A DNA stretch of 35,514 nt. Source: an uncultured Actinomycetes bacterium (GTDB lineage Bacteria > Actinomycetota > Actinomycetes > Nanopelagicales > Nanopelagicaceae). The notes below the pieces were generated by a model, which saw nothing but the letters and a program-made list of their open reading frames with translations, was not told where the DNA came from and did not search any database. Location of the stretch: the NCBI GenBank assembly GCA_903844115.1, contig CAIMSI010000084.1:1-35514 (forward strand), written 5' to 3'. Positions 740 through 22,508 of this stretch are shown piece after piece (the stretch's first letter is position 1; every line of letters starts with the position of its first letter). The position numbers and the translations under genes were made by a program.

Positions 740-3085
740 TTGCATGTGCCTAAAGCCTGGAGTGATGACGCCCCAACCCCGATGGTCCTGCAAGAGCACG
801 CGCATTTAAAGGATCCCTTTGTATACAAACTGAAGAAATTCTTTTTGGGCAACCCTCTCAACCGGCATTCACTTTCACACCAACGTCTTTCTAAGAAATT
901 TGCTCTCGGAATCCTCTCCTCAGATTGCATCTCTTCATCGGCGTACGGTTCGGAACAGATTCTTCTTGCTCTTCTTCCTGCTTTTGGTTTAGCGGCTTTT
1001 AATATTTTGATGCCAATGACTGCAATCGTTCTCGCGGTTCTCGTCATCGTCACAATTTCATATCGCGAAGTTGTTCAGATTTATACAAAGTCCGGTGGCG
1101 CATACGTCGTATCGCGCGATAACTTGGGACCACTCTTCTCGCAGATTGCCGCCGTTGCTCTCATGTTGGATTACATCGTTACGGTGGCAATTCAATCCTC
1201 AGCCGGTATAGACGCAATTATTTCGACATTCACAGGTCTACACCCTTACAAACTTTGGATGACCCTTGCTGTCATCGCGCTGCTTACATTTGGAAATCTT
1301 CGTGGTGTGAAAGAGGCAGGTGCGGCATTTGCACTTCCTACATATCTATTTGTGCTCTCACTCGTAACCGTGTTCGGTATGGGTATCTATCGGATGACGA
1401 TGGGTACGCTGCCTAAGTTTGATCCAAGTGCCTTACATGGGGCCGTCGCAATTGGGCAAGCAAAAGGCTTGTTGAATTTTGCAGCGATATTTATTTTGCT
1501 TCGCGCTTTTGCAAATGGTGGTTCTTCTCTTACCGGCCTTGAAGCTATTTCAGATGGCGTATCGCTATTTCGCGCACCAGAAGGTGTCAATGCTCGCAAA
1601 ACTCTTGTTGTTATGTCGGCTATCTTGGGTTCACTTGTCTTTGGAGTTTCATATTTTGCACATCGCACGTGGGCCACTCCTTATGAAACAGGTACCCCAA
1701 CAGTTATCTCTCAAATTGCTAAGGCGACGCTAGGTTCTGGAACATTTGGAAACATCATGTTCTATGTTGTTCAGGGAACAACCATGTTGATTCTTATTAC
1801 CGGAGCAAATACTGCATTTTCGGGCTTCCCGTATTTAGTGAACTTTGTTGCAAATGATGGCTTTCTACCTCGCCAACTTACAAAGCGCGGACACCGTCTA
1901 GCGTTTTCAAACGGAATACTTCTTCTTTCTGGTGGCGCTGTTGCGCTCGTTTTATTTACCGGAGGATCGGTTAACCACCTCGTTGCTTTCTACGCCTTAG
2001 GCGTTTTCACTGGATTCGCCCTCGTTGGATTCGGAATGGGCAAGCGCGCTTTGAAACATAAAGAAAGCGGATGGGTTTATAAGGTTGTCGTGAACTGGTT
2101 ATCTGGAGCCGTTTCGGCGGTCATTATCTTGATCTTTGCAGTTGTTAAATTTACCGAAGGGGCCTGGATCATTCTGGCGATTACGCCGATCATTGTTTTC
2201 GCTCTCATCCGACTCAATGGACAGTATCGACGTGAACAAGCGGCTCTGCGCGTGGGTGCATCTGAAAACCGCGCAACATCAATCACGCGTCACGATGCAA
2301 CTGTTCTTGTAGATGCCGTGGATCTTGCAACCCTTGGAACTGTTCGTTACGCACGCTCACTCAAGCCGCGCAGCTTGAAAGCGGTGCATTTTGTTATCGA
2401 TGATCGCCACGCAGAAGAAATCAAAGAGGCGTGGGTAACGAATCCAGCGCTTACTGATGTCTCTTTAGAACTTATCGATTGCCCAGATCGTCGTATTCCA
2501 AATGCCGCTGTTGACTATGCAATTCGTACAACTCAGGCTCCTAATGTTGAATTAACACTTCTGCTTCCACGCCGTGCTTACTCTGCAGTTCTTGGACGTT
2601 TACTCCACGATCAGACAGCGGATGAGATTGCGAAACCTATTTCCCAATTGCCACGTGTTGTAGCAACAATTGTTCCATTCGATGTAACACGAGTTCTAGC
2701 TAACGAGCCATTGATTGAGCCCAAGGCAGAAGAAAAATCATCTATAACTCATACTTCACGCCTACGTCGAGTCAGTGATGAAGTAAATGAAGTGGTTGAT
2801 ACATCTCATTATTCTGAAAGTGTTATCCCAATCAACACCGCAACATGGCGACATCGTGCACACGTACGCGGAAAAGTAACTGCCATTCGCACAGCACCAT
2901 CAGGATCTCATCCACGTGTGGAAATTGAGGTCTGGGATGAAACTGGCGGAATTACATTGCAATTCTTAGGCCGCCGTGAAGTGATTGGTCTTGAAGTTGG
3001 TTCCACACTCTGCGCAGAAGGAATGGTTGCAGAAGATGAGGGTGCACTTACTATCTTGAATCCTTCGTACGAAATCGTTATCTAG
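740..3085 (+). CDS. KimA-like APC-superfamily potassium transporter fused to a C-terminal OB-fold domain
   Basis: The 781-residue protein has three parts: a multi-span membrane domain (about 35-490), a soluble region (about 495-690) and an OB-fold-like domain (701-781). The membrane part matches my knowledge of KimA/YdaO-type K+ uptake proteins: FLGNPL, SSDCISSSAYG (Asp62 and Tyr69, equivalent to ion-site residues in KimA), SGGAYVVSRDNLG and LDYIVTVA. The tail, with LGRREVIGLE and a terminal NPSYE, resembles the stand-alone actinobacterial OB-fold protein encoded near a related transporter in mycobacteria. Potassium as substrate is inferred from the family. The TTG start at 740 has GAGG about 10 nt upstream; ATG at 782 is an alternative that would shorten the protein by 14 residues. 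It ends 3 bp from the convergent tadA. Confidence 0.85.
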   Translation: MHVPKAWSDDAPTPMVLQEHAHLKDPFVYKLKKFFLGNPLNRHSLSHQRLSKKFALGILSSDCISSSAYGSEQILLALLPAFGLAAFNILMPMTAIVLAVLVIVTISYREVVQIYTKSGGAYVVSRDNLGPLFSQIAAVALMLDYIVTVAIQSSAGIDAIISTFTGLHPYKLWMTLAVIALLTFGNLRGVKEAGAAFALPTYLFVLSLVTVFGMGIYRMTMGTLPKFDPSALHGAVAIGQAKGLLNFAAIFILLRAFANGGSSLTGLEAISDGVSLFRAPEGVNARKTLVVMSAILGSLVFGVSYFAHRTWATPYETGTPTVISQIAKATLGSGTFGNIMFYVVQGTTMLILITGANTAFSGFPYLVNFVANDGFLPRQLTKRGHRLAFSNGILLLSGGAVALVLFTGGSVNHLVAFYALGVFTGFALVGFGMGKRALKHKESGWVYKVVVNWLSGAVSAVIILIFAVVKFTEGAWIILAITPIIVFALIRLNGQYRREQAALRVGASENRATSITRHDATVLVDAVDLATLGTVRYARSLKPRSLKAVHFVIDDRHAEEIKEAWVTNPALTDVSLELIDCPDRRIPNAAVDYAIRTTQAPNVELTLLLPRRAYSAVLGRLLHDQTADEIAKPISQLPRVVATIVPFDVTRVLANEPLIEPKAEEKSSITHTSRLRRVSDEVNEVVDTSHYSESVIPINTATWRHRAHVRGKVTAIRTAPSGSHPRVEIEVWDETGGITLQFLGRREVIGLEVGSTLCAEGMVAEDEGALTILNPSYEIVI

Positions 3086-9109: not shown

Positions 9110-10318
9110 CTAAGAGTTATCTGTGAACTGCATATTTCTGACTTGAGGAAATACCAGGGTAAGCCCAGTAAAAATCGCCGCCAAGATTGCCAATATTTCT
9201 AAGGTGTGAGTGAGCCCCAACCACGAAGCCATCGGAGCGGCAATTGCCAGGCCTAATGGTCGCAATGAAAGTGAACCCATTCCATCGAAGGCTGACACTC
9301 GTGAAAGAGAGTCGCGAGGAACTTCCTTTTGAAGAGCCGTGGTCCAAATTGCGCCCCATAAATCTAGAGTGACCCCCCAGAAGAAAGCACAAAGTGCAAT
9401 TACCCAAAGCTTCATTGGGCTTGCCATTGAGAAAATATAAATTGAGACTGAAAAAGTCATCAGCATCAGAAAACGCATTGGATATTTAGGTCTGATCCGC
9501 ATTCCAAGCAAAGACCCAACAATGTAACCGACCGCTTCTGCCGAAAGAACTATTGACCATGATTTTGCTCCGTTAAAACTTTTCAATGAGATCAATGGTC
9601 CTAAAACATTTTCTGCCGCTGCCCAGCACATCACTATTACGCCAAATGCAGCAACAATTACGACAATCCAACGGAATGAAAGAAATACTTTCCATCCATG
9701 TCGAAGATCATCAAACATTGATGATTCGGAATCTACGGAAACAGTTAAGTGGCGCATACTGAAAACTATTAGTCCGCAGATAAGAAAACTTGCGGCATCG
9801 ATAGTCAGAGCAATTGTGGAGCCGACGGTTGAAACGAGAATTCCACCAACGGCTGTACCTGAAATAATTGCGATATTGGCTGTAAATTGATTAGCGGAGT
9901 TTGCTTTCTGCAAATCAACTTCATCGACAAGGGCAGGCATCAGACCACCAAATGCCGGCCAAAAAACTCCCCACGCCAAACCAAAAATAATATTTACCGA
10001 CAAGAAAATTCCAATTGGAACATGTCCGGTACTAAAAAAATATGCCTGAACAAGAAAGGCGGTTCCACCAATAATGTCCATTAGTCCTAGGACCATTACG
10101 CGGCCATATTTGTCAGCAATCACTCCGCCGAGCGGTGACATACAAAGCATGGCAATTGTTTGGATACCCAATATCCAACCGAGCAGGGACGCACTTCCAC
10201 CACGCATATGAAGAATTCCAAATGCAAGGGCAATCGGGCCCATTCCATTTCCAAAATTTGAAATGAAGCGTGCTACTAGGAAGCGCCGGTAATGTGGACG
10301 CGCAAGAATTTCACGCAT
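9110..10318 (-). CDS. MFS transporter, probable exporter (EntS/MFS_3-like)
   Basis: A 402-residue integral membrane protein with about 12 hydrophobic spans. The start (FLVARFISNFGNGMGPIAL) and the loop GGVIADKYGRVMV between the second and third spans match major facilitator proteins of the multidrug/siderophore exporter type. No substrate can be assigned. The ATG immediately follows the TAA of the upstream small membrane protein gene (zero spacing), so the pair is translationally coupled. The HtrA gene follows after 68 bp and has its own strong ribosome-binding site, so it may belong to the same transcript or have its own promoter. Confidence 0.85.
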   Translation of the reverse strand: MREILARPHYRRFLVARFISNFGNGMGPIALAFGILHMRGGSASLLGWILGIQTIAMLCMSPLGGVIADKYGRVMVLGLMDIIGGTAFLVQAYFFSTGHVPIGIFLSVNIIFGLAWGVFWPAFGGLMPALVDEVDLQKANSANQFTANIAIISGTAVGGILVSTVGSTIALTIDAASFLICGLIVFSMRHLTVSVDSESSMFDDLRHGWKVFLSFRWIVVIVAAFGVIVMCWAAAENVLGPLISLKSFNGAKSWSIVLSAEAVGYIVGSLLGMRIRPKYPMRFLMLMTFSVSIYIFSMASPMKLWVIALCAFFWGVTLDLWGAIWTTALQKEVPRDSLSRVSAFDGMGSLSLRPLGLAIAAPMASWLGLTHTLEILAILAAIFTGLTLVFPQVRNMQFTDNS

Positions 10319-10702
10319 TTATTTTGACTTGCCCTCAATATCTTGAATAACTCGGTGAATTTCGGCGGCAATTTCCTTCAATTCGGCAAGTTCTTGTTGA
10401 GCAAAAGCACGTGCTTCTTTAGCTAACTCAAATTCGCCGAGGGATGCGGCATGTGTTTCGTTGATCTTTTGCTCAACTGATTTAGCCCCAACATTTTGTC
10501 CCACCATAATGATGGAAAGCAAAACTAGCTGAAGGAATGTTTGGGCAATCCACGCAACAATCACGAGAACACTGCCACTTTTAAGGGCAGAAGGAAGAGA
10601 GATCAGGGCGATAATCGCAAAAGCATAGGCACACCACATAGTGGCGACTCCAGCTGTTATTTTTGCTGCTAGCTTTTCATTGAATCCACTGATTTTGCTC
10701 AT
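10319..10702 (-). CDS. Small membrane protein, two spans plus C-terminal coiled coil (unassigned)
   Basis: A 127-residue protein with two hydrophobic segments (about 16-36 and 44-68) and a charged helical tail (about 80-125, rich in Glu, Ala and Lys) likely to form a coiled coil. The stretch VIVAWIAQTFLQLVLL resembles small uncharacterised membrane proteins sometimes annotated as DUF1003 or low-affinity iron permease relatives; I cannot confirm either. No enzyme motif is visible. Its stop codon abuts the start codon of the MFS gene, which argues for a shared job or shared control. The gene is divergent from the LCP gene across about 56 bp. Confidence 0.7.
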   Translation of the reverse strand: MSKISGFNEKLAAKITAGVATMWCAYAFAIIALISLPSALKSGSVLVIVAWIAQTFLQLVLLSIIMVGQNVGAKSVEQKINETHAASLGEFELAKEARAFAQQELAELKEIAAEIHRVIQDIEGKSK

Positions 10703-10758
10703 ACTCTAATCATACGCTCGTCAGAATTCTCCGCTTGATTGGCTATCATTGCGCCTTG

Positions 10759-11913
10759 ATGACTACTAGGCAGACAAAGAGCACGCGAAGCAAGAAGATC
10801 ATTGCCGCCCTCTCGGTTGGCGTTGTTTTTGCATCGGCACTTTTCGCGATTTTCACGAAAACGGCGGCAACTTCCATTCCGCGCTCACATGCCCTTTACG
10901 GAGTACCTGCATCAAAAAATGGGGATACAAACATTCTTTTGCTCGGCCTTGACTCTCGTCGCGACGCTAATGGAGCAAACCTTCCTCGCAAGCTTTTGGA
11001 TTATATGCATGTTGGATCTTCATCCTCCGTTGGTGGATACAACACAAACACAATGATTGTTATTCATATCCCTGCAAAGGGCCCGGCAACCGCTATTTCA
11101 ATTCCTCGCGATGACTATGTCAATGTTCCTGGTTTTGGAATGAAAAAGATTAAAGAAGCCTATGGTTACGCAAAATATGCCGAAGATTCTCGCCTTTACA
11201 AACTTGGTGTTAAAGAACCTATGCGCGAACAACAATCTCGCGAAAAGGGCCGCATAGCCACGATCCAAACAATTTCACAATTCTTACAAATTCCAATCGA
11301 TCACTTTGCCGAAGTAAACCTCGTTGGTTTTTACGATTTGGCAACAGCATTGGGTGGCATCCAAGTTTGCTTACGTCATGCTGTAAATGACAAACAATAT
11401 TCTGGTGCGGTATTCCCTGCCGGTTTGCAAACTATCACCGGTGTTCAAGCCCTTCAATTTGTTCGTCAACGTCACGGATTACCAAATGGCGATCTTGATC
11501 GCACTCATCGCCAACAAGCATTCATTACTGGAGTTATCACTAAATTCCGCACGCAAGGAATTTTTGGCAATCTCAGCAAACTACAAGGACTCCTTGATGT
11601 TGCAAAGAAAGATGTGGTCATCGATAGCGGTTGGGATGTTCTTGGATTCCTTCCTCAAGCAAAATCTCTGACCGGCGGAAAGATCATCTTCCACACTCTG
11701 CCTATCGAGGGCTACACCATGGAGAACAGTCAATCTGTAAATAAAGTTGATATCCCAACTGTTCGCAAATTCACGCAGGACTTGTTCTACCCAGCACCTG
11801 TCGTAAAAGGTAAAGCAACTGCAAGTCCATCACCGAAACCAAGTAAAACAAACTATGCCCACCAAGCAAATGGAAGTGGTGTCGACGGTTCTGGTATTCC
11901 TTGCGTTAATTAG
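10759..11913 (+). CDS. LytR-CpsA-Psr (LCP) family cell-wall glycopolymer ligase
   Basis: LCP enzymes attach polyprenyl-linked glycopolymers to peptidoglycan at the outer face of the membrane. From ATG 10759 the protein is 384 residues: a basic cytoplasmic end, one membrane span (about 13-30), and an extracellular LCP domain with NILLLGLDSRR, NTNTMIVI, SIPRDDYVNVPG and the Arg-rich LDRTHRQQAF motif, all family landmarks. The C-terminal 30 residues are Pro/Ser/Lys-rich. A TTG start at 10735 would add 8 residues; ATG is preferred because TATCAT lies 9 nt upstream, giving a nearly leaderless mRNA. Its stop overlaps the end of the convergent nagA by 4 bp. Confidence 0.9.
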   Translation: MTTRQTKSTRSKKIIAALSVGVVFASALFAIFTKTAATSIPRSHALYGVPASKNGDTNILLLGLDSRRDANGANLPRKLLDYMHVGSSSSVGGYNTNTMIVIHIPAKGPATAISIPRDDYVNVPGFGMKKIKEAYGYAKYAEDSRLYKLGVKEPMREQQSREKGRIATIQTISQFLQIPIDHFAEVNLVGFYDLATALGGIQVCLRHAVNDKQYSGAVFPAGLQTITGVQALQFVRQRHGLPNGDLDRTHRQQAFITGVITKFRTQGIFGNLSKLQGLLDVAKKDVVIDSGWDVLGFLPQAKSLTGGKIIFHTLPIEGYTMENSQSVNKVDIPTVRKFTQDLFYPAPVVKGKATASPSPKPSKTNYAHQANGSGVDGSGIPCVN

Positions 11914-13001
11914 TAACGATAGGTTTTAACTACTTTTCCATCTATTACTTCAACGAAATGCGCTAACTTTCCAATCGCAATTTCCCCAACAAATTCAATT
12001 CCCAAGGTTCGCGCAGGCAGCGTTGAAGCGCAAAAGGATGCATATTCTAAAGAAGATCCAAATTGGCTCATCAATCTTTCAAATGATGCCTTCATAGTAA
12101 GTGTGCTTCCGGCCAGCGAACCATTTGATGTTAAGCGAGCTACTCCATCTTTCACATTCACATCTAGTTTCCCAATAGTAAATCCACCATCTGCGCCACC
12201 TGCCGCAGACATTGCATCCGTTACCAGAATTACACGCCCAGGAGCAGTGCGAAGTAATAACTCTGTTGCTCCATCATCCACATGGTGACCATCATTAATA
12301 AGTTCGAGCGCCATCGAATCGTCAAGCAAAGTAGTTAAGGTGATATTTGGGTTCTTGTGGTCAATAGTAGGAAGCGCATTATAGAAATGTGTAACTAGCG
12401 AAGCGCCCGCTGATATCGCTTTTTCAGCAACGGCTGCATCCGCGTTTGTATGTCCAAGTGCAACAACAACTCCGTTTTCGACGAGAAAGTCAATCGCTTC
12501 AATTCCATGTGGCAATTCTGGCGCGAGTGTCATCATCGAAATTGCGCCATCGCCAACATCAAGTAGTTCTTTCAATTCGGATATAACTGGATCTCGCAAC
12601 AAAGCCGGATCATGGGCACCACATTTGTGAGGCGAAAGGTATGGGCCCTCGAGATGAATTCCGCCAATCTCACCACTCTGAACAAATGGAAGTAAGCGCG
12701 TGATCTGTTCTTTCAACGAATCCAAAGGTTCAGAGACCAAACTTGCGAGCATTGTCGTCGTGCCATTTTCGCGATGTATCTCAATAACTTTTTGAATATC
12801 TGCTGAGCTCTTTGCGCTGAAGTAATGGCCAGCTCCACCATGACAATGGATGTCTACAAAGCCAGGAATAAGAGTTCCTTCGACAACCAGATCTGCCGGG
12901 CCTTTCACATCCAAGGAAGTGATAATTCCATCGATAACTTCCAGTTTTACATTATTGCAAAGCTCACCATCGATAATCGCCGCCTTTGCGTGAATGATCA
13001 T
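11910..13001 (-). CDS. nagA: N-acetylglucosamine-6-phosphate deacetylase
   Basis: NagA removes acetate from N-acetylglucosamine (or galactosamine) 6-phosphate in the cytoplasm. The 363-residue sequence shows the amidohydrolase fold landmarks: DIHCHGG (His52 and His54), HLEGPYLSP (Glu118, metal), ALGHTNA (His184), THFYNA (His205) and the catalytic Asp262 in VTDAMSAAG. Length is normal. It is the last gene of a leftward operon; its ATG overlaps the stop of the ROK kinase gene (ATGA). This position, after a kinase and a glycosidase, supports catabolism of imported amino sugar rather than cell-wall recycling alone. GlcNAc versus GalNAc as sugar is not resolvable here. Confidence 0.93.
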   Translation of the reverse strand: MIIHAKAAIIDGELCNNVKLEVIDGIITSLDVKGPADLVVEGTLIPGFVDIHCHGGAGHYFSAKSSADIQKVIEIHRENGTTTMLASLVSEPLDSLKEQITRLLPFVQSGEIGGIHLEGPYLSPHKCGAHDPALLRDPVISELKELLDVGDGAISMMTLAPELPHGIEAIDFLVENGVVVALGHTNADAAVAEKAISAGASLVTHFYNALPTIDHKNPNITLTTLLDDSMALELINDGHHVDDGATELLLRTAPGRVILVTDAMSAAGGADGGFTIGKLDVNVKDGVARLTSNGSLAGSTLTMKASFERLMSQFGSSLEYASFCASTLPARTLGIEFVGEIAIGKLAHFVEVIDGKVVKTYRY

Positions 13002-13900
13002 TTATTTTGCCTTGCTGCAAAAATCCCGGCACCAATCATTCCGGCGTGATCGCCTAATGAAGCAATTGCAATCTTTGGTCGGCGTTGAAAAGTGAGTCTG
13101 GAATCCAAATACGTAGAAATAGGTTTGAGCAGATCTTCGCCAGCTTTTGAAACTCCGCCACCTAGAATAATAATTTCTGGCGCAAGAATATTTGTGTAAG
13201 CAGCTAAAGCAAATCCGATTGCATCAACAGCTTCTTTCCACACCTTCATTGCGATGGCATCACCGTTGTGCATGGCTTCTAAAACTTGGGAAACGCTTGT
13301 AAAGTTATTTGAACTCTCGCTGTTGTAACTCCGCAAAATTGATGGTCCAGTTGAAATACTTTCAAGACAACCCATCACTCCACATGCACACATATAGCCG
13401 CTGTTTACATCCAGGTGACCAATTTCCCCAGCATAAGGATCATCGTAAATTTCCCCATCGAGAATAATCGCCCCCGCGATACCAGTTCCGATTGGCATGA
13501 AAAAAGAGTTAGCAAATCCCCTGCCAGCGCCATACAGTGATTCAGCAATTCCTCCGGCGCGTACGTCGTGAGCAAATCCAACAGGCAACTTTGTTAAATC
13601 ATTTATTTTTTTTACAAATGGAACGTTTCGCCAACCAATATTCTCTGAATATTCGGCAACGCCAGTTTTTGTATTCACCACTCCGGGAACAACGACGCCT
13701 ATCGCTCTTGCTTCGGGAAATTCGTCATGCATTGATTTTGCAGCAAGTAATACTTGGTCAACGGCATGATCTGAGCCTTTTTCTCTTTCCGTCGCCCAAC
13801 GACGGGTCGCAATTATTTCGCAACCTTGAAGATACCCAGCCTTAATTTCTGTACCGCCAACATCAAGACCAATTACGAGATCTTGATTTGATGAAGTCAC
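12998..13900 (-). CDS. ROK family sugar kinase, probable N-acetylhexosamine kinase
   Basis: The 300-residue protein has the ATP-binding DVGGTEIK motif (13-20), the catalytic Asp112 in HDVRAGG, and the ROK zinc site GHLDV with CACGVMGCLE (His162, Cys171, Cys173, Cys178). ROK proteins with this layout and without a DNA-binding N-terminus are glucose, N-acetylglucosamine or N-acetylmannosamine kinases. Its place between a GH4 glycosidase and NagA, with ATGA overlaps on both sides, points to phosphorylation of the N-acetyl sugar released by the glycosidase. That substrate assignment is inference; glucokinase is the main alternative. Confidence 0.88.
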   Translation of the reverse strand: MTSSNQDLVIGLDVGGTEIKAGYLQGCEIIATRRWATEREKGSDHAVDQVLLAAKSMHDEFPEARAIGVVVPGVVNTKTGVAEYSENIGWRNVPFVKKINDLTKLPVGFAHDVRAGGIAESLYGAGRGFANSFFMPIGTGIAGAIILDGEIYDDPYAGEIGHLDVNSGYMCACGVMGCLESISTGPSILRSYNSESSNNFTSVSQVLEAMHNGDAIAMKVWKEAVDAIGFALAAYTNILAPEIIILGGGVSKAGEDLLKPISTYLDSRLTFQRRPKIAIASLGDHAGMIGAGIFAARQNK

Positions 13901-15231
13901 TCTGAAAACCCTCCAAGATGTTTCGGATCAAATGCAATTGCATCATCAAGTATGCCAGTTGCCTTCTGGTAGCTAGCAACTAACGGGTCAAGGTAGAGGG
14001 CCTGAAGAGCCATTTCTCGGCTTTGATCGCGTGCGGCAGTGACTGTGAGTTCCTGTTGCTGTGATCGCTGGGTCAAAACAGTTGCAATGGCTTTTGGTAG
14101 GGCTCCAACACGAAGCGGCGTCACACCATTAGCGCCAATCACGGCAGGAACTTCGACTACTGCTTCAGGCGGCAAGTTTGAGATAGCTCCATTGTTGGGA
14201 ACATTTACTGCAAGTTCGACATGGCTCTTACCGGTGATTAAAGCCTCGGCAATTGAAACAAGTCGCTCCGCTTCTTGGTTATCACGTTTGTGTACTGGGG
14301 TTGAGCCGTCGGCTTGAGCGCGAAGTTCTTCCCACAAGTCGCCTTTCTCGCCAATATAAAGTTCTGTCATATTTAATCCACCTTGCAAGCCCCAATGCAA
14401 TTCACCGGAGTCTTGTCGCGTTAGATAACTACCAAAGAATTCTGCAACATGTCGATCACCTGGTGCTGGATAAAGTCCGAATGTTTTAAACAGGTCTGCT
14501 GAGACAGGTGAGTGAACACCCTCCTCATAATTTATTGCCGCGTTTACATCGCCAGCTTTAGCGTTTACGGCGTCACGAAGTTTCGAGTATAAATTTGTTG
14601 ATCCTTGTTTAATATCTAGTAGCCAACAAAGGTGGTTTATGCCGGCAAAAATAGTTTCGACGCCAACGTCTTCAATTCCTAAGTCAGCAAGAATCTTTGA
14701 GCGTGTATGCATCGTTCCGTGGCAAAGACCTACGACGTTTACTCCAGTATATTTATGAATTCCACGAACATTGGCAGTCAATGGATTGCTGTAATTGATA
14801 TACCAAGCGTTCGGTGCAACATCTGCAATGTCCTCGGCAATCGAGACGAGTGCAGGAACATGTCGAAGTGCACGCAATACTCCGCCCGGTCCGACAGAGT
14901 CCCCAACGGTTTGGTGAATTCCATATTTACGAGGGATTTCTAAATCAGCTTTCCAACCAGCCGCTGCCCCAACGGCAATTGTTGTCGTAACAAAATCAGT
15001 TCCTTTAAGGGCCTCGCGCTGACTGGTATAGGCCTTAACAACCATTTTGGAGCCATGGAGGGTCGCAATTCGATTACCCACACGTGCCATAATTTCTGAG
15101 GACTCATTATTGATATCGTATAAATGGACCTCAAAGTCATCGGATAACTTTGATTGCGCCAAATCATGCATAAGGCCTGGGGTAAATACTGTGCTTCCAG
15201 CGCCTATGAGAGTGAAGACCTTCTTATTCAT
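13897..15231 (-). CDS. Glycoside hydrolase family 4 (NAD+ and metal dependent)
   Basis: GH4 enzymes cleave glycosides in the cytoplasm by an NAD+-assisted redox/elimination mechanism. From ATG 15231 the protein is 444 residues: NAD-binding GAGSTVF (10-16), INYSNPLT (145-152), the metal-ligand motif CHGT (170-173) and GINH (197-200). Known subgroups are distinguished by this four-residue motif; CHGx has been associated with alpha-glucuronidase-type members, CHSV with alpha-galactosidases and CN(I/V)P with 6-phospho-glycosidases. So a non-phosphorylated substrate imported by the neighbouring ABC system is likely. TTG at 15243 would add 4 residues but sits directly after the upstream stop. Its 3' end overlaps the ROK start by 4 nt. 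Confidence 0.88.
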   Translation of the reverse strand: MNKKVFTLIGAGSTVFTPGLMHDLAQSKLSDDFEVHLYDINNESSEIMARVGNRIATLHGSKMVVKAYTSQREALKGTDFVTTTIAVGAAAGWKADLEIPRKYGIHQTVGDSVGPGGVLRALRHVPALVSIAEDIADVAPNAWYINYSNPLTANVRGIHKYTGVNVVGLCHGTMHTRSKILADLGIEDVGVETIFAGINHLCWLLDIKQGSTNLYSKLRDAVNAKAGDVNAAINYEEGVHSPVSADLFKTFGLYPAPGDRHVAEFFGSYLTRQDSGELHWGLQGGLNMTELYIGEKGDLWEELRAQADGSTPVHKRDNQEAERLVSIAEALITGKSHVELAVNVPNNGAISNLPPEAVVEVPAVIGANGVTPLRVGALPKAIATVLTQRSQQQELTVTAARDQSREMALQALYLDPLVASYQKATGILDDAIAFDPKHLGGFSE

Positions 15232-15243
15232 CTTATATTCCAA

Positions 15244-16080
15244 TCACTTGACGCTACCGTTGATGAGACCACTGACAATAAACCTATTTGTAAGAAGTGC
15301 AATAACAGCAGGAACGCTTAACGCAATCACTCCCGCTGTACTAAGAAGTGAATAAGGAACTATGTGACGCCCCTGAATGGCGGCAACAATTACGGTTAGG
15401 GGTTGAGTGGATTGATCACTTGCCAGAACAAGAGGAAAGATGAATTGGGCCCACGCGAAGAGGAATGTAATAACCGCCGTCGAGGCAATCGCAGGCATAG
15501 TTAGCGGCAAAACGATAAGTCGGAATATTTGCATCCGAGATGCACCATCGACTGATCCAGCTTCCTCAATTGCCAGCGGAAGGCTTTGCATGTAGCTAAA
15601 GAGAATCCATGTTGCGAGAGGCAAAAATCCTGAGACATAACAGAGGATGATTCCAAGATATGTATTTACCAAGTGCACCATCGCCATAATTCGATACATC
15701 GGAATCAGCGTTGTATATGTTGGGAAAGCCATAGTCATAACAACGACGAACAAGAAGAACTTGCGGCCTTTAAATTCCATTCGAGCAAAGGCATAAGCTG
15801 CAAGTGAAGCCAAAACAACTGTAATGATGGTTGCCGAGATACATTCAATAAAAATATTGATTGTTGCTCGGCGGATCATACTTGGAAGCTCACCATCTCC
15901 AATGAGTAGCGCTTTGTAATTCGCCCATCCTGGAGTTGGGGGAAACAAATGTGCCGGTGTATCGGAAATTTGGGCATCGGTTTGGAAACTCGTATTAATA
16001 ACCCAATAAATCGGAACAAGAGACCAAGAAAGTATGACTCCAACGCCAAAACGTCTGAAACCCTTTTTATGCAGCTTCAT
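15244..16080 (-). CDS. Carbohydrate ABC transporter permease (MalG-like)
   Basis: A 278-residue membrane protein with six hydrophobic spans. The cytoplasmic coupling (EAA) motif EEAGSVDGASRMQIFRLIV is at about 193-211 and mediates contact with an ATPase. N-terminal features (SLVPIYWVINTSFQ) are typical of MalG-type permeases of the CUT1 family for oligosaccharides. Start and upstream stop share TGATG, so it is translationally coupled to the MalF-like gene. The GH4 gene follows. No ATPase gene lies in this operon. Confidence 0.92.
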   Translation of the reverse strand: MKLHKKGFRRFGVGVILSWSLVPIYWVINTSFQTDAQISDTPAHLFPPTPGWANYKALLIGDGELPSMIRRATINIFIECISATIITVVLASLAAYAFARMEFKGRKFFLFVVVMTMAFPTYTTLIPMYRIMAMVHLVNTYLGIILCYVSGFLPLATWILFSYMQSLPLAIEEAGSVDGASRMQIFRLIVLPLTMPAIASTAVITFLFAWAQFIFPLVLASDQSTQPLTVIVAAIQGRHIVPYSLLSTAGVIALSVPAVIALLTNRFIVSGLINGSVK

Positions 16081-16952
16081 CAGTATTCAACCTTCTTGTA
16101 GATAAATTTTGCGACTATTACCGAAATAAAGAGCGTGAAGAGTGTGATGAGAAGTGAAAGTGCGTATCCCTGCCCAAAATTTAGGTTTTGGAAGCTCACT
16201 GCATACGTTTCCATAGCAAGAGAATTTGCCGTGGACGCTGCGCCATTCAAGATATATGGCTGATCAAAAATATTAAGTGTGGCAATGATGGATTGGACAA
16301 CAGCAATAGCGATACCAGGGCGTATGAGTGGCAACGTTAAGTAACGGAATGATTTCCTGCCATTACTACCATCAATCGTCGCAGCCTCATATAAATCATC
16401 TGGAATATTTTGTAGGACTGCCAAAATAAGAATTGTTGATAGCGGGGTGATTTGCCAAACTTGGACTACTTCAATTGCAAGAATGGTCAGGAACTTATGT
16501 TGCCCAAGAAAGACTTGATAGTGGGTAATGAGATGCATTGATTTCAAAACACTATTTAGAACTCCGGTATTTGCATCCCAAATTCCGGTCCATAGAATTC
16601 CTTCCACTACTCCTGGGAGCGCCCAAGGAAGAATAAGCACTGCTATTAAAATAGAGCGGCCTACGAATCGGCGCTGCAAAATTACAGCAAAGTAAATTCC
16701 TAGGACCGTAGAAAGAGTGACGCCAATAATGATGTAAATGAATGTATTACCCAAGCTCGAAATAACATTGGCGTTATGCAAAATATCTCGAAAATTTTCA
16801 AGGCCTGAGAAATGTGTTGGGGGATTTAGCGGTTGAACTTTAAAAAATGCAGCGATGGTTGTGAAAGCTGCTGGTGTGAGAGCTAAAAGAACGATGAAGA
16901 TAATCAGAGGTGAAATTAGTGCGTATGGGAGAAAATCCGTTTTCTTTTTCAC
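16080..16952 (-). CDS. Carbohydrate ABC transporter permease (MalF-like)
   Basis: A 290-residue membrane protein of the CUT1 sugar importer class with about six spans and the EAA-type loop YEAATIDGSNGRKSFRYLTL at about 204-223. It starts at GTG 16952 behind a perfect GGAGG placed 7 nt upstream, a strong signal that would let translation restart after the stem-loop lying between it and the binding-protein gene. It pairs with the MalG-like permease through a TGATG overlap. Substrate is inferred from neighbours as an amino-sugar-containing oligosaccharide or glycoside. Confidence 0.92.
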   Translation of the reverse strand: MKKKTDFLPYALISPLIIFIVLLALTPAAFTTIAAFFKVQPLNPPTHFSGLENFRDILHNANVISSLGNTFIYIIIGVTLSTVLGIYFAVILQRRFVGRSILIAVLILPWALPGVVEGILWTGIWDANTGVLNSVLKSMHLITHYQVFLGQHKFLTILAIEVVQVWQITPLSTILILAVLQNIPDDLYEAATIDGSNGRKSFRYLTLPLIRPGIAIAVVQSIIATLNIFDQPYILNGAASTANSLAMETYAVSFQNLNFGQGYALSLLITLFTLFISVIVAKFIYKKVEY

Positions 16953-16980
16953 TTGATCACCTCCAATTGCTCAAGATTGG

Positions 16981-17012
16981 AAATAGCCACCAGATCTGCC
17001 TGGTGGCTATTT
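16981..17012 (-). terminator. 13-bp perfect stem-loop between binding-protein and permease genes
   Basis: AAATAGCCACCAG (16981-16993) and CTGGTGGCTATTT (17000-17012) are exact inverted repeats with a 6-nt loop. It starts 19 nt after the binding-protein stop and lies 28 nt before the permease GTG. The RNA 3' flank has no strong U run beyond the stem's own UUU. Family precedent (such as the malE-malF region) suggests partial termination or 3'-end protection that keeps binding-protein mRNA in excess; that role is inference. Confidence 0.75.
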
Positions 17013-17031
17013 GATTTCCTTCGGATGTTGA

Positions 17032-18351
17032 CTATTTACCGCTTGAAAGCTTTGTTGCTACTGCACCAATTGCTTTTATAGCTGCGTCAACAGTCATTGT
17101 TCCGGCGGCCGCTGCATGCAGGTTTGTATAAACAGCGCCTGAGAACTCTGGGTACCAAGCTGGTGCTCCTTGTGGGAATACTGCAGCAGAAGTCTTGAGC
17201 ATTCCTGCCAAGACATCTCCTCCAATAATGGAGCCTTTCTTATTGAGAATTGCGATGCCGGAAAGACGTGATGGGAAGAAATAACCTACCCATGTACGTG
17301 CAGTTCCATTTGCACCGGCAAAGTCAGCCATGTTCTTACCATCGGTGAACCAGCTAATAAATTTAGCTGCTGCCGCTGGGTTCTTGGCTTTTACAGGAAT
17401 TCCAATTCCATCTGGGTTTCCTAGATTTGAAGTTGGTCCGCTTGCGCCGGGAGTCGCCAAGTATTGAACTTGATGTACAACCGATGAAGACGCAGCAACA
17501 TCGTAAAGAGAACCGACGTTTCCGGAGTAATCGCTAAATGTTGAAGCGACCTTTCCTTTAGCCATCAGTGTTTGTTGACCTTGGCTATCTGCAACGTTGA
17601 TATTTCCTGGTGGGACAAGACCAGTCTTCACTGCGTTGACCATCCAAGCAGCAGCTTTGTAGCCAGCACTTGCTGGATCTGTAAAGAGTGGCTTGCCTGC
17701 GGCATCGAGGATGTGTCCACCGAATGCTCCAGTTGTTTCATACCAATAAGTTGAAAGACCTTCTGCTGCTGCAAATGGAATATTCAGTGGATACTGAACT
17801 ACATTTTTTGCTTTTACAGCTTTCAAGTCTGCTGTGTACTCATCAATTGTTGTTGGCATCTTTGTAATGCCAGCTTTTGCAAAGAGCGCTTTGTTCACGG
17901 TTGTAACCATGAATGAAGCGTCATAAGGAATACCTACAACATGGCCATTCTTTGTGAAGCTGCTTAGTTGTGGCATATCCGTTGCTAACGCCTTGGTATC
18001 TAAATACTTTTCCATTGGGAGGAACCAGTTGAGTTTTCCAAGTTGTCCAACTCGGGACCAGTCGACATCTGTTGCATCTGCATAATAAGTATTTGCTGTT
18101 GATCCAGCGGCAATTTTGGTTTGGAGAGAGTCCCAATCCACTTGAGTCCATTTAACATTGATTCCCGTTGCTTTTGTGAACTCAGCAAGCATGGCAGGAG
18201 GAAGCGGAGGCGCTGCTAGCACAACCGAAATGGTCACTGGGCTAGCTGCCTTTGCTGGCGCAGCGAGTGAAGCGAAACCGAAAGCTGATGCAACTGCGAC
18301 AACAATTGCAATGCTCTTTTGAGACTTACTAATTTTTATTGCGTTTTGCAT
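17032..18351 (-). CDS. Extracellular solute-binding protein of sugar ABC importer (operon 1)
   Basis: The 439-residue protein is a family 1 solute-binding protein. It has a cleavable type I signal peptide: basic start, hydrophobic core about 13-31, and APAKA ending at residue 35. There is no lipobox Cys, which is unusual for a Gram-positive binding protein. The mature part begins VTISVVLAAPPLPPAMLAEFTKATGINVKW, as in CUT1 sugar-binding proteins (the quoted start is split here: VTISVVLAAP, then FTKATGINVKW). It captures the sugar outside the membrane for the MalF/MalG-like pair encoded downstream. A weak AAAGG lies about 11 nt before the ATG. The SIS gene is 65 bp upstream and probably on the same transcript. 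Confidence 0.9.
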   Translation of the reverse strand: MQNAIKISKSQKSIAIVVAVASAFGFASLAAPAKAASPVTISVVLAAPPLPPAMLAEFTKATGINVKWTQVDWDSLQTKIAAGSTANTYYADATDVDWSRVGQLGKLNWFLPMEKYLDTKALATDMPQLSSFTKNGHVVGIPYDASFMVTTVNKALFAKAGITKMPTTIDEYTADLKAVKAKNVVQYPLNIPFAAAEGLSTYWYETTGAFGGHILDAAGKPLFTDPASAGYKAAAWMVNAVKTGLVPPGNINVADSQGQQTLMAKGKVASTFSDYSGNVGSLYDVAASSSVVHQVQYLATPGASGPTSNLGNPDGIGIPVKAKNPAAAAKFISWFTDGKNMADFAGANGTARTWVGYFFPSRLSGIAILNKKGSIIGGDVLAGMLKTSAAVFPQGAPAWYPEFSGAVYTNLHAAAAGTMTVDAAIKAIGAVATKLSSGK

Positions 18352-18416
18352 ATTGTGGTTAGCCTTTCATCTCTATTTGGTTTTATGACTTCGTGCTTCT
18401 TATTTCCTATCACTAA

Positions 18417-19292
18417 CTAGCCGAGAATGACTGAACGCGATAATCCTCGAGGATGATCAGGATCAAGACCTTTCAGTTTTGCGATTTCAATTGCTACGCG
18501 TTGAGCGCGAATCAAATGTGCCATCGGGTCCAACGAACTCTTCTCTAAAAGAGCTCCAGTTGCAATGATTTCCGCTTCTAATTTTGGGTCTAATTCGCCA
18601 AAAACCCATACGGCACGCCCTTTTTGAGCAATTGACATTGGTCCATGACGATAATCGAATTGAGGATATGCCTCAGACCAAAATTGCGCAGCTTCGCGTG
18701 TTTTAAGTCCGGCTTCCTGGGCGAGGGCAACAGTCCATCCCCGACCAAGAAATGAAATCTGTTCAACCTTTGGAAGATCTCCCAAATCGCTGTTAATTGC
18801 GATTTCGGCATCTTTCGCCGCCGCTGCTAAATCAAATCCATTGTGAGCGCGCAGTAATCCAAGTGCTGCGGTTGCCCATCGTGTTTGTACGACAGATACT
18901 TCATCAGCAAAATCCATAATGATGGAATGTGTAGCAAATTGTGTTACGGGTGAGCCCGCGACGGCAGTGATGACAGTTGTGGGAATTTTTGTTTTTTGAA
19001 GTACTTCAACGATTTCAGTCGTCGTGCCTGAACGAGAAATAACGACAAGGTGGTCATATTTACGGGTGAAGTTAAATTCAGATCCGGCATAAAAATCAGT
19101 TTCCCCGTTGCCAGCTGCTTCTCGAACAGCGGCATACCCCTGGGACATAAACCATGAGCTTCCACACCCAACCGCGGCGACTCTTGCGCCATGCTTTGGC
19201 AGAAGGTGGGCAACGGACGGGAGAAATGCGGCGGTTTGGCGCCAAATGTCGGCTTGGGTAGCTAATTCAGATTCACAGATGTATTTGGTCAT
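18417..19292 (-). CDS. SIS-domain phosphosugar isomerase/deaminase (AgaS/GlmS-isomerase-like)
   Basis: A 291-residue protein with two SIS domains. Phosphosugar-binding segments are visible: GCGSS at 42-46 and SRSGTTTE at 86-93. The C-terminal DPDHPRGLSRSV resembles the isomerase end of glucosamine-6-phosphate synthase and AgaS-like deaminases. No glutaminase domain is present, so a catabolic aminosugar-6-phosphate deaminase/isomerase is the best reading. It would act after NagA, yielding fructose 6-phosphate or tagatose 6-phosphate. It is the first gene of the leftward operon. No ribosome-binding site precedes the ATG; TACCGT ends 5 nt upstream, consistent with a leaderless mRNA. A related fructoselysine-type deglycase is an alternative. 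Confidence 0.85.
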   Translation of the reverse strand: MTKYICESELATQADIWRQTAAFLPSVAHLLPKHGARVAAVGCGSSWFMSQGYAAVREAAGNGETDFYAGSEFNFTRKYDHLVVISRSGTTTEIVEVLQKTKIPTTVITAVAGSPVTQFATHSIIMDFADEVSVVQTRWATAALGLLRAHNGFDLAAAAKDAEIAINSDLGDLPKVEQISFLGRGWTVALAQEAGLKTREAAQFWSEAYPQFDYRHGPMSIAQKGRAVWVFGELDPKLEAEIIATGALLEKSSLDPMAHLIRAQRVAIEIAKLKGLDPDHPRGLSRSVILG

Positions 19293-19386
19293 ATGCGACG
19301 GTAACGCTCCAGACTGGGCAAAGTCAAGAAATTCTGCTCGTTTTTGACTTATTTCAATTGTAGCGAAACATTTACACTCAAAAACT

Positions 19387-19415
19387 TGCCTTTACTTCAT
19401 AGGTGCCGTTGAATC
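19387..19415 (+). promoter_or_regulatory. Putative promoter of the rightward sugar-import operon
   Basis: TTGCCT (19387-19392), a 17-nt spacer and TTGAAT (19410-19415) form the best sigma-70-like match upstream of the second binding-protein gene. The inverted-repeat arm at 19379-19386 abuts the -35 box, so a repressor bound there would block it. The leader would be about 50 nt. Confidence 0.4.
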
Positions 19416-19440
19416 ATCCCACCCGAAGGAAGCTCCCGCT

Positions 19441-19468
19441 CCCTTCTACCCTCAAATCCTTAAGGGAG
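19441..19468 (+). promoter_or_regulatory. Possible leader hairpin covering the ribosome-binding site
   Basis: CCCTT at 19441-19445 can pair with AAGGG at 19462-19466, part of the Shine-Dalgarno sequence AAGGGAG that serves the ATG at 19474. The same CCCTTC can instead pair with GAAGG upstream at 19426-19430. The two pairings exclude each other. The helices are short, so this is only a candidate translational switch. Confidence 0.3.
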
Positions 19469-19473
19469 AATAA

Positions 19474-20733
19474 ATGAAGAAATCAACGCGTCGCGTTGCC
19501 TTCTCGGCATCGCTCGTTTTGGCCGCCACCGGTGTTGTTGGCATTTCACTACCTGTAGCTCACGCTGCAACTGTCAACCTCACAATGGTCGCCGCTGACT
19601 ATCCAGGAGATGGAAAGACTCAGCAAGCACAATGGGATGGTCTTTCAAAGGCATTCGCTGCTGCAAACCCAGGCATCACCATGACTGTAAACGTAGTTTC
19701 ATGGGATGTAATTGACGACAAGGTTAAGACTTTGATCGCAACAGGTAAGACACCTGACATTGTTAACAAGGGCGACTATTCAGCACCAGCTGCTGCCGGT
19801 CTTCTCTACAAAGCTTCAGAAATGGTTTCTGCTTCAACACTTGCAGATATCGTTCCAACATTCTTGAACAACTCAATGTACAACGGAACAGCTTATGCAG
19901 TTCCAGATCTTGCTTCAGCTCGTGCTTTGTTCTACAACAAGGACATCTTGAAGAAGGCTGGCGTTACAAAGCTTCCAACAACTTACGATGAATTGATCAC
20001 AGTACTTTCAAAGATCAAGGCAAAGAACCCAGGCGTTTATGGTTACGCAGTTCCAATGGGTCCAGAAGAAGCACAAGCTGAATTCGCAATCTGGGCTGGC
20101 GGAAACGGTGGTCGTATGTACGACTACACCGCAAAGAAGTGGACCATTAACTCACCAGCAAACATTGGTGCGATGACATTCTTGAAGAAGCTCAATGACC
20201 TCAAGTACATCGAGCCAAACCCAGCTAAATGCGACCGTACCGCTTGCGCACAAACATTGTTCGCAGCTGGCAAGGCAGCATTCATCAACGGTTCTGTATT
20301 CCTTCCAGCATGGTTGAAGGCAAACGGCGGAGCAGGAATCAACCTTGGTTCCGGCGCATTCGTACACGGTCCAGGACAAGAGGCTGTAACACTTGGCGTG
20401 CAGGATTACTTCACTGCATACAAGGCAAACGGTCACCAAGCTGAAATCCAGAAGTTCATGGACTTCTTGTACCAGCCAGCAAACTACGCTGACTTCCTAA
20501 CTGCTGCGGGCGGATTCATTCCTGCAACAAAGTCAGCTGGCGCAGTTGCTGCTAAAGACCCAGCACTTGCTCCATTTATTGCATTGCTGCCAAAGGCGAT
20601 CTTCTACCCAGGAGATATCGCAACATTCCCAGCAGTGAAGGGTGCTCTACAAACTTCAGTCGGACTTGCTATCACAGGCAATCCAACAAAGGTTCTTGGA
20701 GACATTCAGAAGAAAGCTCTTGCTGCTAAGTAA
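19474..20733 (+). CDS. Extracellular solute-binding protein of sugar ABC importer (operon 2)
   Basis: A 419-residue family 1 sugar-binding protein. The N-terminus is a classic type I signal peptide: basic MKKSTRR, hydrophobic core 9-27, AHA cleavage site near 31. No lipobox Cys is seen. The mature part has the CUT1 pattern, with FAAANPGITMTVNVVSWD early and NKGDYSAPAAAGLLY following. Lys, Asn, Tyr, Asp and Phe are coded almost only by AAG, AAC, TAC, GAC and TTC, unlike its neighbours, which suggests very high expression. The AAGGGAG ribosome site lies 5 nt before the ATG. It is the first gene of the rightward operon and supplies the permease pair downstream. Confidence 0.92.
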   Translation: MKKSTRRVAFSASLVLAATGVVGISLPVAHAATVNLTMVAADYPGDGKTQQAQWDGLSKAFAAANPGITMTVNVVSWDVIDDKVKTLIATGKTPDIVNKGDYSAPAAAGLLYKASEMVSASTLADIVPTFLNNSMYNGTAYAVPDLASARALFYNKDILKKAGVTKLPTTYDELITVLSKIKAKNPGVYGYAVPMGPEEAQAEFAIWAGGNGGRMYDYTAKKWTINSPANIGAMTFLKKLNDLKYIEPNPAKCDRTACAQTLFAAGKAAFINGSVFLPAWLKANGGAGINLGSGAFVHGPGQEAVTLGVQDYFTAYKANGHQAEIQKFMDFLYQPANYADFLTAAGGFIPATKSAGAVAAKDPALAPFIALLPKAIFYPGDIATFPAVKGALQTSVGLAITGNPTKVLGDIQKKALAAK

Positions 20734-20763
20734 ATCAGTAGCATCAGTTAAACTAAATTAATA

Positions 20764-21654
20764 ATGGCAACGGGATCAATTCGTAGAGGTCGCTTCGGCG
20801 CACTTCCGTGGATTGGTCCCGCTGTTGTTTTAATTCTCGTTATGGTGGTGTGGCCTGCCATCGAGATGATTCGCACCTCGCTACATGAGATAGACCAGAC
20901 TGGTATCGCAAAAGGTTGGAATGGAATTTCCAACTACCGCACCCTTATTCATAATCCTGATCTCCCTCAAACACTTGTACGCACTCTCATTTGGGTAAGT
21001 GTCGTGGTTTCTCTCACTGTTCTTATTTCCCTACCCGTTGCGCAAATACTCCATGGAAAATTCCCAGGACGTAAAGTTGTTCGTTACTCCATCATCATCC
21101 CGTGGGCTGCATCAGTTGTTATGACGGCAACAATCTGGCGCTGGATACTCGACGGATTTTATGGAATTCTCAATCGAATTCTCCAAGATGTTGGAGTGCT
21201 GAAAGATCCAATCGATTGGCTTGGTAATCCAAATTCTGCATTTGTTTTCTTAATGGTTGTAGCAATATTTGTATCTGTTCCTTTTACAACTTATGTAATC
21301 CTTGCTGGACTCACAACAGTGCCTGAGGATATTCTCGAAGCCAGCTCGATTGACGGGGCTAACGGCTGGAAGCGATATAAAGAAATTACATTCCCACTTC
21401 TTCGCTCGGCTCTTCTTGTTTCGGCTGTAATCAATTTAATAAACGTCTTTAACTCATTTCCTATCATTTGGGCAATGACAGGTGGTGGGCCTGGATATTC
21501 CACAGATACCACGACAACCCTTGCTTACAAGATCAGCTTCCGTGACCAAGACATTGGTCAATCCGCAGCGATGGCAACAGTTAACTTTGCAATTATTCTG
21601 ATCTTTATTTCAATCTTTTTGAAGGTCTCTAAGTGGCGGGAGACAAGCGAATGA
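20764..21654 (+). CDS. Sugar ABC transporter permease (MalF-like, operon 2)
   Basis: A 296-residue membrane protein of the CUT1 class with about six spans; the coupling loop is LEASSIDGANGWKRYKEITF at about 195-214, and a typical MalF-type segment WAMTGGGPGYSTDT follows. It starts 30 bp after the binding-protein gene with no obvious Shine-Dalgarno sequence before the ATG, so translation may be weaker than that of the binding protein. The stop overlaps the start of the MalG-like gene (ATGA). Confidence 0.92.
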   Translation: MATGSIRRGRFGALPWIGPAVVLILVMVVWPAIEMIRTSLHEIDQTGIAKGWNGISNYRTLIHNPDLPQTLVRTLIWVSVVVSLTVLISLPVAQILHGKFPGRKVVRYSIIIPWAASVVMTATIWRWILDGFYGILNRILQDVGVLKDPIDWLGNPNSAFVFLMVVAIFVSVPFTTYVILAGLTTVPEDILEASSIDGANGWKRYKEITFPLLRSALLVSAVINLINVFNSFPIIWAMTGGGPGYSTDTTTTLAYKISFRDQDIGQSAAMATVNFAIILIFISIFLKVSKWRETSE

Positions 21655-22499
21655 CGATGGCTGGGTCTTCACGCAAACGATTTACTGGACGTAAAGTTTC
21701 ATTGACGATTTCTGGTTGGGTTATTGGCGCCGTATTCATTCTGCCTTATTTATATATGCTCATCACGGCACTCAAGCCAAAAGCAGAAATCACTAAAATT
21801 CCAATTGATTATCTGCCGTCAAAGTGGACCTGGGCAAATTTCACAGAAGTTTGGCATGTGCTTCCACTTGCTGGATATTTAAAATCATCCTTCCTGGTCG
21901 CATTTGCGGCCACGCTCGTTGTATTGATTTTCGCTGTACCTGCTGCCTATTACGTTGCTCGCAATAAGTTTCGCGGTCGCACAGCATTTTTAATGCTTGT
22001 TCTCATTACCCAAATGTTTTCTCCAACCGCACTTGTGGTGGGTATTTTCCGCGAGATGATCAAGTTCCACCTTGTTGATACTTATTTCTCTCTCATTTTG
22101 ATTTATGGCGCTTTCAACATGGCTTTTTCAATCTGGATTCTCTCGTCATTCTTTGCATCAATTCCTGTCGAAATCGAAGAAGCTGCATGGATTGATGGAG
22201 CAAGTCGAATTGGAACTCTGCGGCGAGTAATTTTGCCTTTAGCGATGCCTGGGCTTGTCACAGCTTTCATATTCACATTCATTGCTGCATGGAATGAATA
22301 TGTCATAGCGCTCACATTGATGTCATCCCCACAGCGCGAACCTCTCACTGTCGGACTTACTTCGCTGATTGGCCAATATCAGATCCAATGGAACTACCTC
22401 TTTGCTGGTTCCCTCATTGCAATCATTCCAGTTGTCATTCTCTTTGCATCAATTGAAAAATACCTTGTCGGAGGCCTTACAGCCGGCTCTGTTAAGTGA
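21651..22499 (+). CDS. Sugar ABC transporter permease (MalG-like, operon 2)
   Basis: A 282-residue CUT1 permease with six hydrophobic spans and the EAA loop IEEAAWIDGASRIGTLRRVI near residues 174-193. I chose ATG 21651, which overlaps the MalF-like stop as ATGA and has GGGAG 8 nt upstream; a GTG at 21633 would add 6 residues inside the previous gene. It ends 9 nt before the DeoR regulator gene. Like operon 1, this system lacks an ATPase gene and must use one encoded elsewhere, as MsiK/MsmK-type shared ATPases do in other Gram-positives. Confidence 0.92.
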   Translation: MTMAGSSRKRFTGRKVSLTISGWVIGAVFILPYLYMLITALKPKAEITKIPIDYLPSKWTWANFTEVWHVLPLAGYLKSSFLVAFAATLVVLIFAVPAAYYVARNKFRGRTAFLMLVLITQMFSPTALVVGIFREMIKFHLVDTYFSLILIYGAFNMAFSIWILSSFFASIPVEIEEAAWIDGASRIGTLRRVILPLAMPGLVTAFIFTFIAAWNEYVIALTLMSSPQREPLTVGLTSLIGQYQIQWNYLFAGSLIAIIPVVILFASIEKYLVGGLTAGSVK

Positions 22500-22508
22500 G
22501 CACAGCAA

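Follow-up and report, generated by a model that had tools for sequence, protein, structure and literature searches.

KimA (YdaO) of Bacillus subtilis (PDB 6s3k, 8b70, 8b71) is a K+/H+ symporter of the KUP/APC type for which the K+-binding and proton-coupling residues have been described (PMC6994465). The symporter is inhibited by c-di-AMP, which is contacted by its alpha/beta domain (PMC10284832). In Mycobacterium tuberculosis the Trk system is described as two TrkA proteins, without the pore being named, and mycobacterial strains devoid of Trk and Kdp still import K+ by a route that has not been assigned (PMC13163235). For Streptomyces an orphan cluster of OB-fold proteins (cluster 13947) is reported to be syntenic with trkA (PMC13118837), and according to unpublished data cited in a review the RCK protein Vnz_27460 of S. 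venezuelae does not bind c-di-AMP (PMC10117811). Vnz_27460 and the KimA-like Vnz_27465 carry adjacent tags. Literature searches yielded no work that connects an OB fold with KimA.

The window analysed here, a contig of 35,514 nucleotides (CAIMSI010000084.1) from an uncultured member of the Nanopelagicaceae (Actinomycetes), contains a gene in which a KimA-type transporter and an OB domain are encoded in one open reading frame. Its features are:

740..3085, + strand: KimA-OB fusion gene, open for 781 amino acids, with the TTG start as listed; homologues align from about residue 2-3
818..2251, + strand: KimA-type transmembrane domain, residues 27-504, from the model and the alignment to KimA
2282..2698, + strand: cytosolic alpha/beta domain, residues 515-653, from the predicted structure
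Within the alpha/beta domain, residues 623-626: HDQT, at the place of KimA HNQS (579-582), a c-di-AMP contact according to PMC10284832
2708..2815, + strand: linker, residues 657-692, disordered and poorly conserved, pLDDT under 50
2819..3082, + strand: C-terminal OB domain, residues 694-781, from the PF01336 profile, the model and structure comparison
Within the OB domain, residues 706-718, 726-733, 736-743, 756-766, 769-773 and 776-780: strands, from the predicted structure
2966..2977, + strand: LGRR motif, residues 743-746, at the position of FNQPY in the RecG wedge

The tail had originally been delimited as residues 701-781, which correspond exactly to positions 2840-3085. Elsewhere in the window (9110-24141) two sets of sugar-type ABC transporters with solute-binding proteins and permeases were recognised by eye, together with a SIS-domain gene and genes resembling those of a GlcNAc-6-phosphate deacetylase, a ROK kinase and a class II aldolase.

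Residues 29-566, which comprise the membrane domain and part of the cytosolic domain, align with B. subtilis KimA (PDB 6s3k) at E 7e-100, and the transporter belongs to the KimA subfamily of KUP K+/H+ symporters; the word "channel" used for it in the original prediction was wrong. In the full-length AlphaFold2 model (mean pLDDT 81, 50 sequences in the alignment) a helical membrane part is followed by the alpha/beta domain (residues 515-653), the disordered linker (657-692) and, at 706-780, a beta barrel. All seven residues of the K+/H+ site are conserved, D62, Y69, D144, T148, T265, E268 and Y418 corresponding to D36, Y43, D117, T121, T230, E233 and Y377 of KimA. The K+ site (D36, Y43, T121, Y377) and the proton-coupling E233 are identical in the window protein and in nearly all 32 fused relatives, and the fused proteins presumably catalyse proton-coupled K+ import. 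The genome to which the window belongs (G000, 98% complete) gave no match for TrkH, KdpA, Kup or Ion_trans_2, and KimA-OB looks like its only recognised K+ importer, unknown families aside. Among 37 genomes of the family KdpA was found in 3 and Kup in 1.

The fusion is real, as had been claimed. Full-length matches without stop codons are present in nearly all Nanopelagicaceae genomes, those of the same genus included, and when GTDB contigs were scanned the best 80 loci were all fused (80/80), among them loci on finished chromosomes such as that of Ca. Planktophila lacus (NZ_CP016769, L165). The hosts of these best 80 loci are Nanopelagicaceae (Planktophila), Streptomyces sp. ICBB 8177, Kitasatospora mediocidica, Pseudonocardia acidicola, Lapillicoccus, Dermatophilaceae, Acidimicrobiaceae and a single MAG with the label Chloroflexi. 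When close relatives are compared, identity is 92-95% in the KimA part and 89-92% in the OB part, against 37-55% in the linker, so that the OB part is a conserved domain behind a freely changing linker; its dN/dS is about 0.02-0.13, with dS near saturation.

In a tree of 73 KimA parts the fused proteins form one clade (SH-aLRT 100) apart from the KimA of the usual actinobacterial locus, and two changes are needed to explain the distribution of fused and unfused members. As far as sequences tell, the fused proteins are one old clade. Its members without OB are L133, which stands at the base, and a tandem pair (L129). The latter consists of two fused-clade KimA copies without OB on one contig (G196:C141, 6631-10545), in a genome which also has an OB-bearing copy (L128); here the OB was lost after duplication. 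Three f4 genomes carry a fused-clade member with a diverged OB in addition to the usual KimA with a separate OB, and both systems are present in several families (f7, f11, f14, f21, f27). All but one of the Nanopelagicaceae genomes examined that have KimA have the fused form; the exception, G036, keeps separate KimA and OB genes in the old block. At one further locus (L065, G056:C343, 9137-11190) the ordinary KimA gene next to the TrkA pair is broken into two frames that overlap, and an intact KimA-OB adjoins trmA. The split gene is possibly a pseudogene that is being replaced by the fusion.

Searches of Pfam, NCBIfam and the PDB with the single tail sequence gave no meaningful match, and a PDB profile search with the stand-alone OB proteins gave none at E 0.05; ubiquitin matches in the profile search were rejected as a many-repeat artefact. 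With the family alignment, PF01336 is matched by 52 of 63 members of the OB family (best E 4.8e-9) and the RecG_wedge profile by 25 of 63. Modelled alone with AlphaFold2, the tail reaches a mean pLDDT of 90.3, and its structural neighbours are OB folds of RPA, RPA filaments, CST, PolC, RecG and aminoacyl-tRNA synthetases, with VIA Z 13.2 over 87 residues at 1.9 A for archaeal RPA (3dm3) and Z 11.5 over 96 residues at 3.6 A for RecG (1gm5). By its model, its structural neighbours and the PF01336 matches the tail is a five-stranded OB barrel, and the original assignment was correct. Invariant in the family are glycines, an aspartate, a phenylalanine, the arginine of the motif and the NP.Y end.

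The fused OB is homologous to the stand-alone actinobacterial OB protein named in the original prediction (hhalign probability 99.9%, E 9e-38, 94 columns). In M. tuberculosis this protein is presumably Rv2694c, and we take the corresponding mycobacterial gene block to be Rv2690c-Rv2694c. The usual order in the class is dut - DUF3710 - OB - trkA - trkA - KimA - trmA; the gene maps thereby agree with the neighbourhood that had been expected, next to a TrkA pair and an APC transporter of KimA type, and synteny with trkA is also noted in PMC13118837. In the genome of the window this block lies on another contig (C127) and reads dut - DUF3159 - trkA - trkA - trmA: KimA, OB and DUF3710 are missing from it, and the fusion is located elsewhere. 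The DUF3159 protein kept between dut and the TrkA pair is encoded at 2207-3016 of that contig (L107). Most genomes of the family likewise have the fusion away from the TrkA pair. In f12 (L096) the fusion takes the place of KimA, and no separate OB is left.

Outside the class, 13 loci were chosen by their OB match alone and their genes were identified by profile searches of all frames. KimA lies within 6 kb of the OB in 13/13 and both TrkA genes are present in 12/13; dut and DUF3710 were detected in none of these loci. The OB gene immediately precedes KimA on the same strand (L236, L242, L246) or immediately follows it there as a separate gene (L234), and in Acidimicrobiia the fused gene and the TrkA pair are divergently oriented. 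Thus OB and KimA occur in a divergent cluster, as neighbours in either order and as a fusion, and this survey together with the changing arrangements indicates that the conserved core consists of KimA, OB and the TrkA pair in variable order.

The presence of OB follows that of KimA. Of 246 genomes of the class, 206 contain both genes and 24 neither; OB occurs without KimA in 4 and KimA without OB in 12 (Fisher p 2e-20, with no correction for kinship, the genomes not being phylogenetically independent). Two of the four OB-only genomes (G040, G117) stop at contig edges and the other two (G149, G269) keep low-scoring OBs; a more sensitive profile search adds G250 to the genomes with OB and without KimA. 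In these three genomes that have lost KimA alone (G149, G250, G269) the OB scores 58-77 bits versus about 105. At their loci (L136, G149:C6, 5971-8394; L258/L267 of G269; L262 of G250) the block has no KimA and contains a degenerate OB, apparently by decay after the loss of KimA; G149 moreover has its second trkA divided between two frames. Of the KimA-only genomes, 9/12 belong to f35, where the two examined (L134, L135) have a non-syntenic KimA outside the block, and one more (G111) is a contig end.

In the KimA-less genomes examined in f17, f20 and f23, KimA and OB, which would flank the TrkA pair on opposite sides, are both absent from the block, whereas trmA, the TrkA pair itself and, at almost every locus, DUF3710 are retained. 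Since one deletion would also have removed the TrkA pair, KimA and OB were lost separately. Altogether the TrkA pair is kept in 20/24 genomes without KimA and OB. Because OB is gone where KimA is lost and the TrkA pair is retained, OB tracks KimA and not TrkA, DUF3710 or dut, and the earlier suggestion that the OB protein works with K+ transport is strongly supported by this co-loss. TrkH is present in 22/24 of the genomes without KimA and OB (24/26 when G149 and G269 are counted) versus about 10/39 KimA-bearing genomes outside the family, a hand-picked set (Fisher p 1e-7, kinship ignored). KimA with OB and TrkH look like alternative K+ routes, with OB going along with KimA.

Two other partnerships were tried and rejected. 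A partner of DUF3710 or dut was discarded as neither gene was detected beside OB in other classes and both remain where OB is lost, and a partner of TrkA rather than KimA as TrkA remains when KimA and OB both go.

We therefore consider it probable, with some reservation, that the window protein is a KimA-type proton-coupled K+ importer to which its own regulatory or assembly module, the OB domain, is covalently attached. Three kinds of linkage speak for this, namely the fusion, same-strand neighbours in both orders and the cluster with the TrkA pair. Against it stand the KimA proteins without OB (f35, L129, L133), which mean that KimA can work without it, and the genomes G250, G149 and G269, which keep OB without KimA. 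A separate gene beside KimA and the TrkA pair encodes this OB protein in most Actinomycetota. The OB would most likely dock on the KimA dimer from the cytosolic side, close to the alpha/beta domain, and may adjust transport according to a cytosolic ligand or a partner that touches the conserved LGRR surface. A role in regulation and a role in assembly or stability would both fit. In the freshwater lineage without c-di-AMP synthase, no built-in control other than the OB would remain on what is apparently the sole recognised K+ importer.

A different role for the OB, which we regard as unlikely, would be that of a ligand-free protein adaptor which couples KimA to a two-subunit, CeoB/CeoC-like TrkA ring, so that TrkA gates KimA instead of TrkH. 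It agrees with the conserved core of KimA, OB and TrkA pair across classes, with the absence of TrkH from all 37 genomes of the family (0/37) and from 18/23 other genomes of the class, set against the near-universal TrkA pair, with the divergent arrangement in Acidimicrobiia, and with the two TrkA proteins without a named pore of M. tuberculosis (PMC13163235). However, the pair outlives KimA and OB in 20 of 24 genomes, most of which have TrkH, and hence does not belong to KimA alone; in most genomes of the family, moreover, the fusion is not beside the pair. The TrkA pair is a possible further partner of the importer and its module, weakened by the survival of TrkA without KimA.

It is improbable that the OB binds DNA or RNA like RecG or RPA, its link to KimA being incidental or serving nucleic acids, for example by tethering. 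PF01336 and RecG_wedge are the nearest families and the structural neighbours include the OBs of RPA, CST and RecG; the RecG wedge is the closest sequence relative, and RecG of the same genome is weakly matched by the OB profile. However, a common fold proves no function, and a DNA-repair part is not expected to show repeated linkage to, and co-loss with, a membrane K+ importer. FNQPY of RecG is an aromatic junction motif that contacts DNA. In the KimA-linked family this motif with its two aromatics is replaced by [LY]GRR: LGRR is kept in the stand-alone OBs and in most fused OBs, where it is often YGRR. This argues against plain RecG-like junction binding, and would leave nucleotides, RNA and protein partners as candidates.

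The original prediction saw the OB perhaps as a nucleotide or nucleic-acid sensor and pointed to the control of KimA by c-di-AMP; a c-di-AMP sensor controlling KimA is now very hard to maintain. The inhibition of B. subtilis KimA by c-di-AMP (PMC10284832) speaks in its favour, as does the presence of the synthase DAC (PF02457) in 23/23 other genomes of the class; it was also found in 11/14 controls. However, PF02457 was found in 0/37 genomes of the family, G000 included, where the fusion is nearly universal. Therefore c-di-AMP cannot be the expected signal there, and the proposal is contradicted unless another synthase exists; by this search the organism does not make the ligand that a c-di-AMP receptor would bind. 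Moreover, KimA binds c-di-AMP via the alpha/beta domain and not via an OB. Non-fused actinobacterial KimA proteins retain the pocket (V457 30/31, V506 29/31, LHNQS 26/31, R337 29/31), yet a separate OB is present with them as well. The fused clade has E for V457 (32/32), F for V506 (29/32) and HDRT or HDQT for HNQS, with R337 mostly kept, so the B. subtilis-type pocket (R337, V457, V506, HNQS 579-582), a regulatory trait that a KimA-type transporter does not need, is not preserved.

That a frameshift or an assembly error has joined two genes, the refutation foreseen at the outset, has in its favour only that the genes are separate in other lineages, and can be dismissed given the same stop-free frame in dozens of independent assemblies and on finished chromosomes, its presence in 80/80 of the best relatives and the conservation of the OB beyond the variable linker.

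Computation shows the OB fold, its homology to the stand-alone protein, the fusion, the linkage to KimA and loss together with it, the conserved K+ site, the altered pocket and the missing synthase, from which K+ import, docking and regulation are inferred. With the importer and its attached OB module as a basis, an orphan OB-fold protein of most actinobacterial genomes, annotated just as nucleic-acid binding, gains a testable role in K+ uptake, a KimA-like protein is suggested as the membrane partner to seek for the mycobacterial Trk system, and abundant freshwater actinobacteria, which have no c-di-AMP synthase, no TrkH and mostly no Kdp, may import and control K+ via one protein. More tentatively, and with considerable doubt, the OB could be a previously unrecognised sensor subunit of KimA, KimA and OB with the TrkA pair could be the membrane part that is missing from the CeoB/CeoC Trk system in Actinomycetota including mycobacteria, and control by OB could have replaced control by c-di-AMP in the fused clade.

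Compared with known systems, the fused protein shares with B. subtilis KimA the membrane and alpha/beta domains and all K+/H+ residues, but adds the linker and the OB, has an altered c-di-AMP pocket and resides in a host without c-di-AMP synthase. The RecG wedge OB (PF17191/PF01336) has the fold, the sequence profile and the pattern G....G....NP.YE in common with the KimA-linked OB, which differs from it in the motif and in lacking a helicase. With the stand-alone OB, encoded between DUF3710 and the TrkA pair, the fused OB shares homology across the whole domain, the GRR motif and the NP.YE end; the former is, however, a separate protein with its own N-terminal extension and the partner of another KimA clade. 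The genes of two-subunit TrkA proteins (CeoB/CeoC of M. tuberculosis; TM1088A/B, PMC4380455) neighbour KimA and OB across the phylum, and whereas the TrkA ring of T. maritima serves TrkH (PMC4380455), TrkH is mostly absent here.
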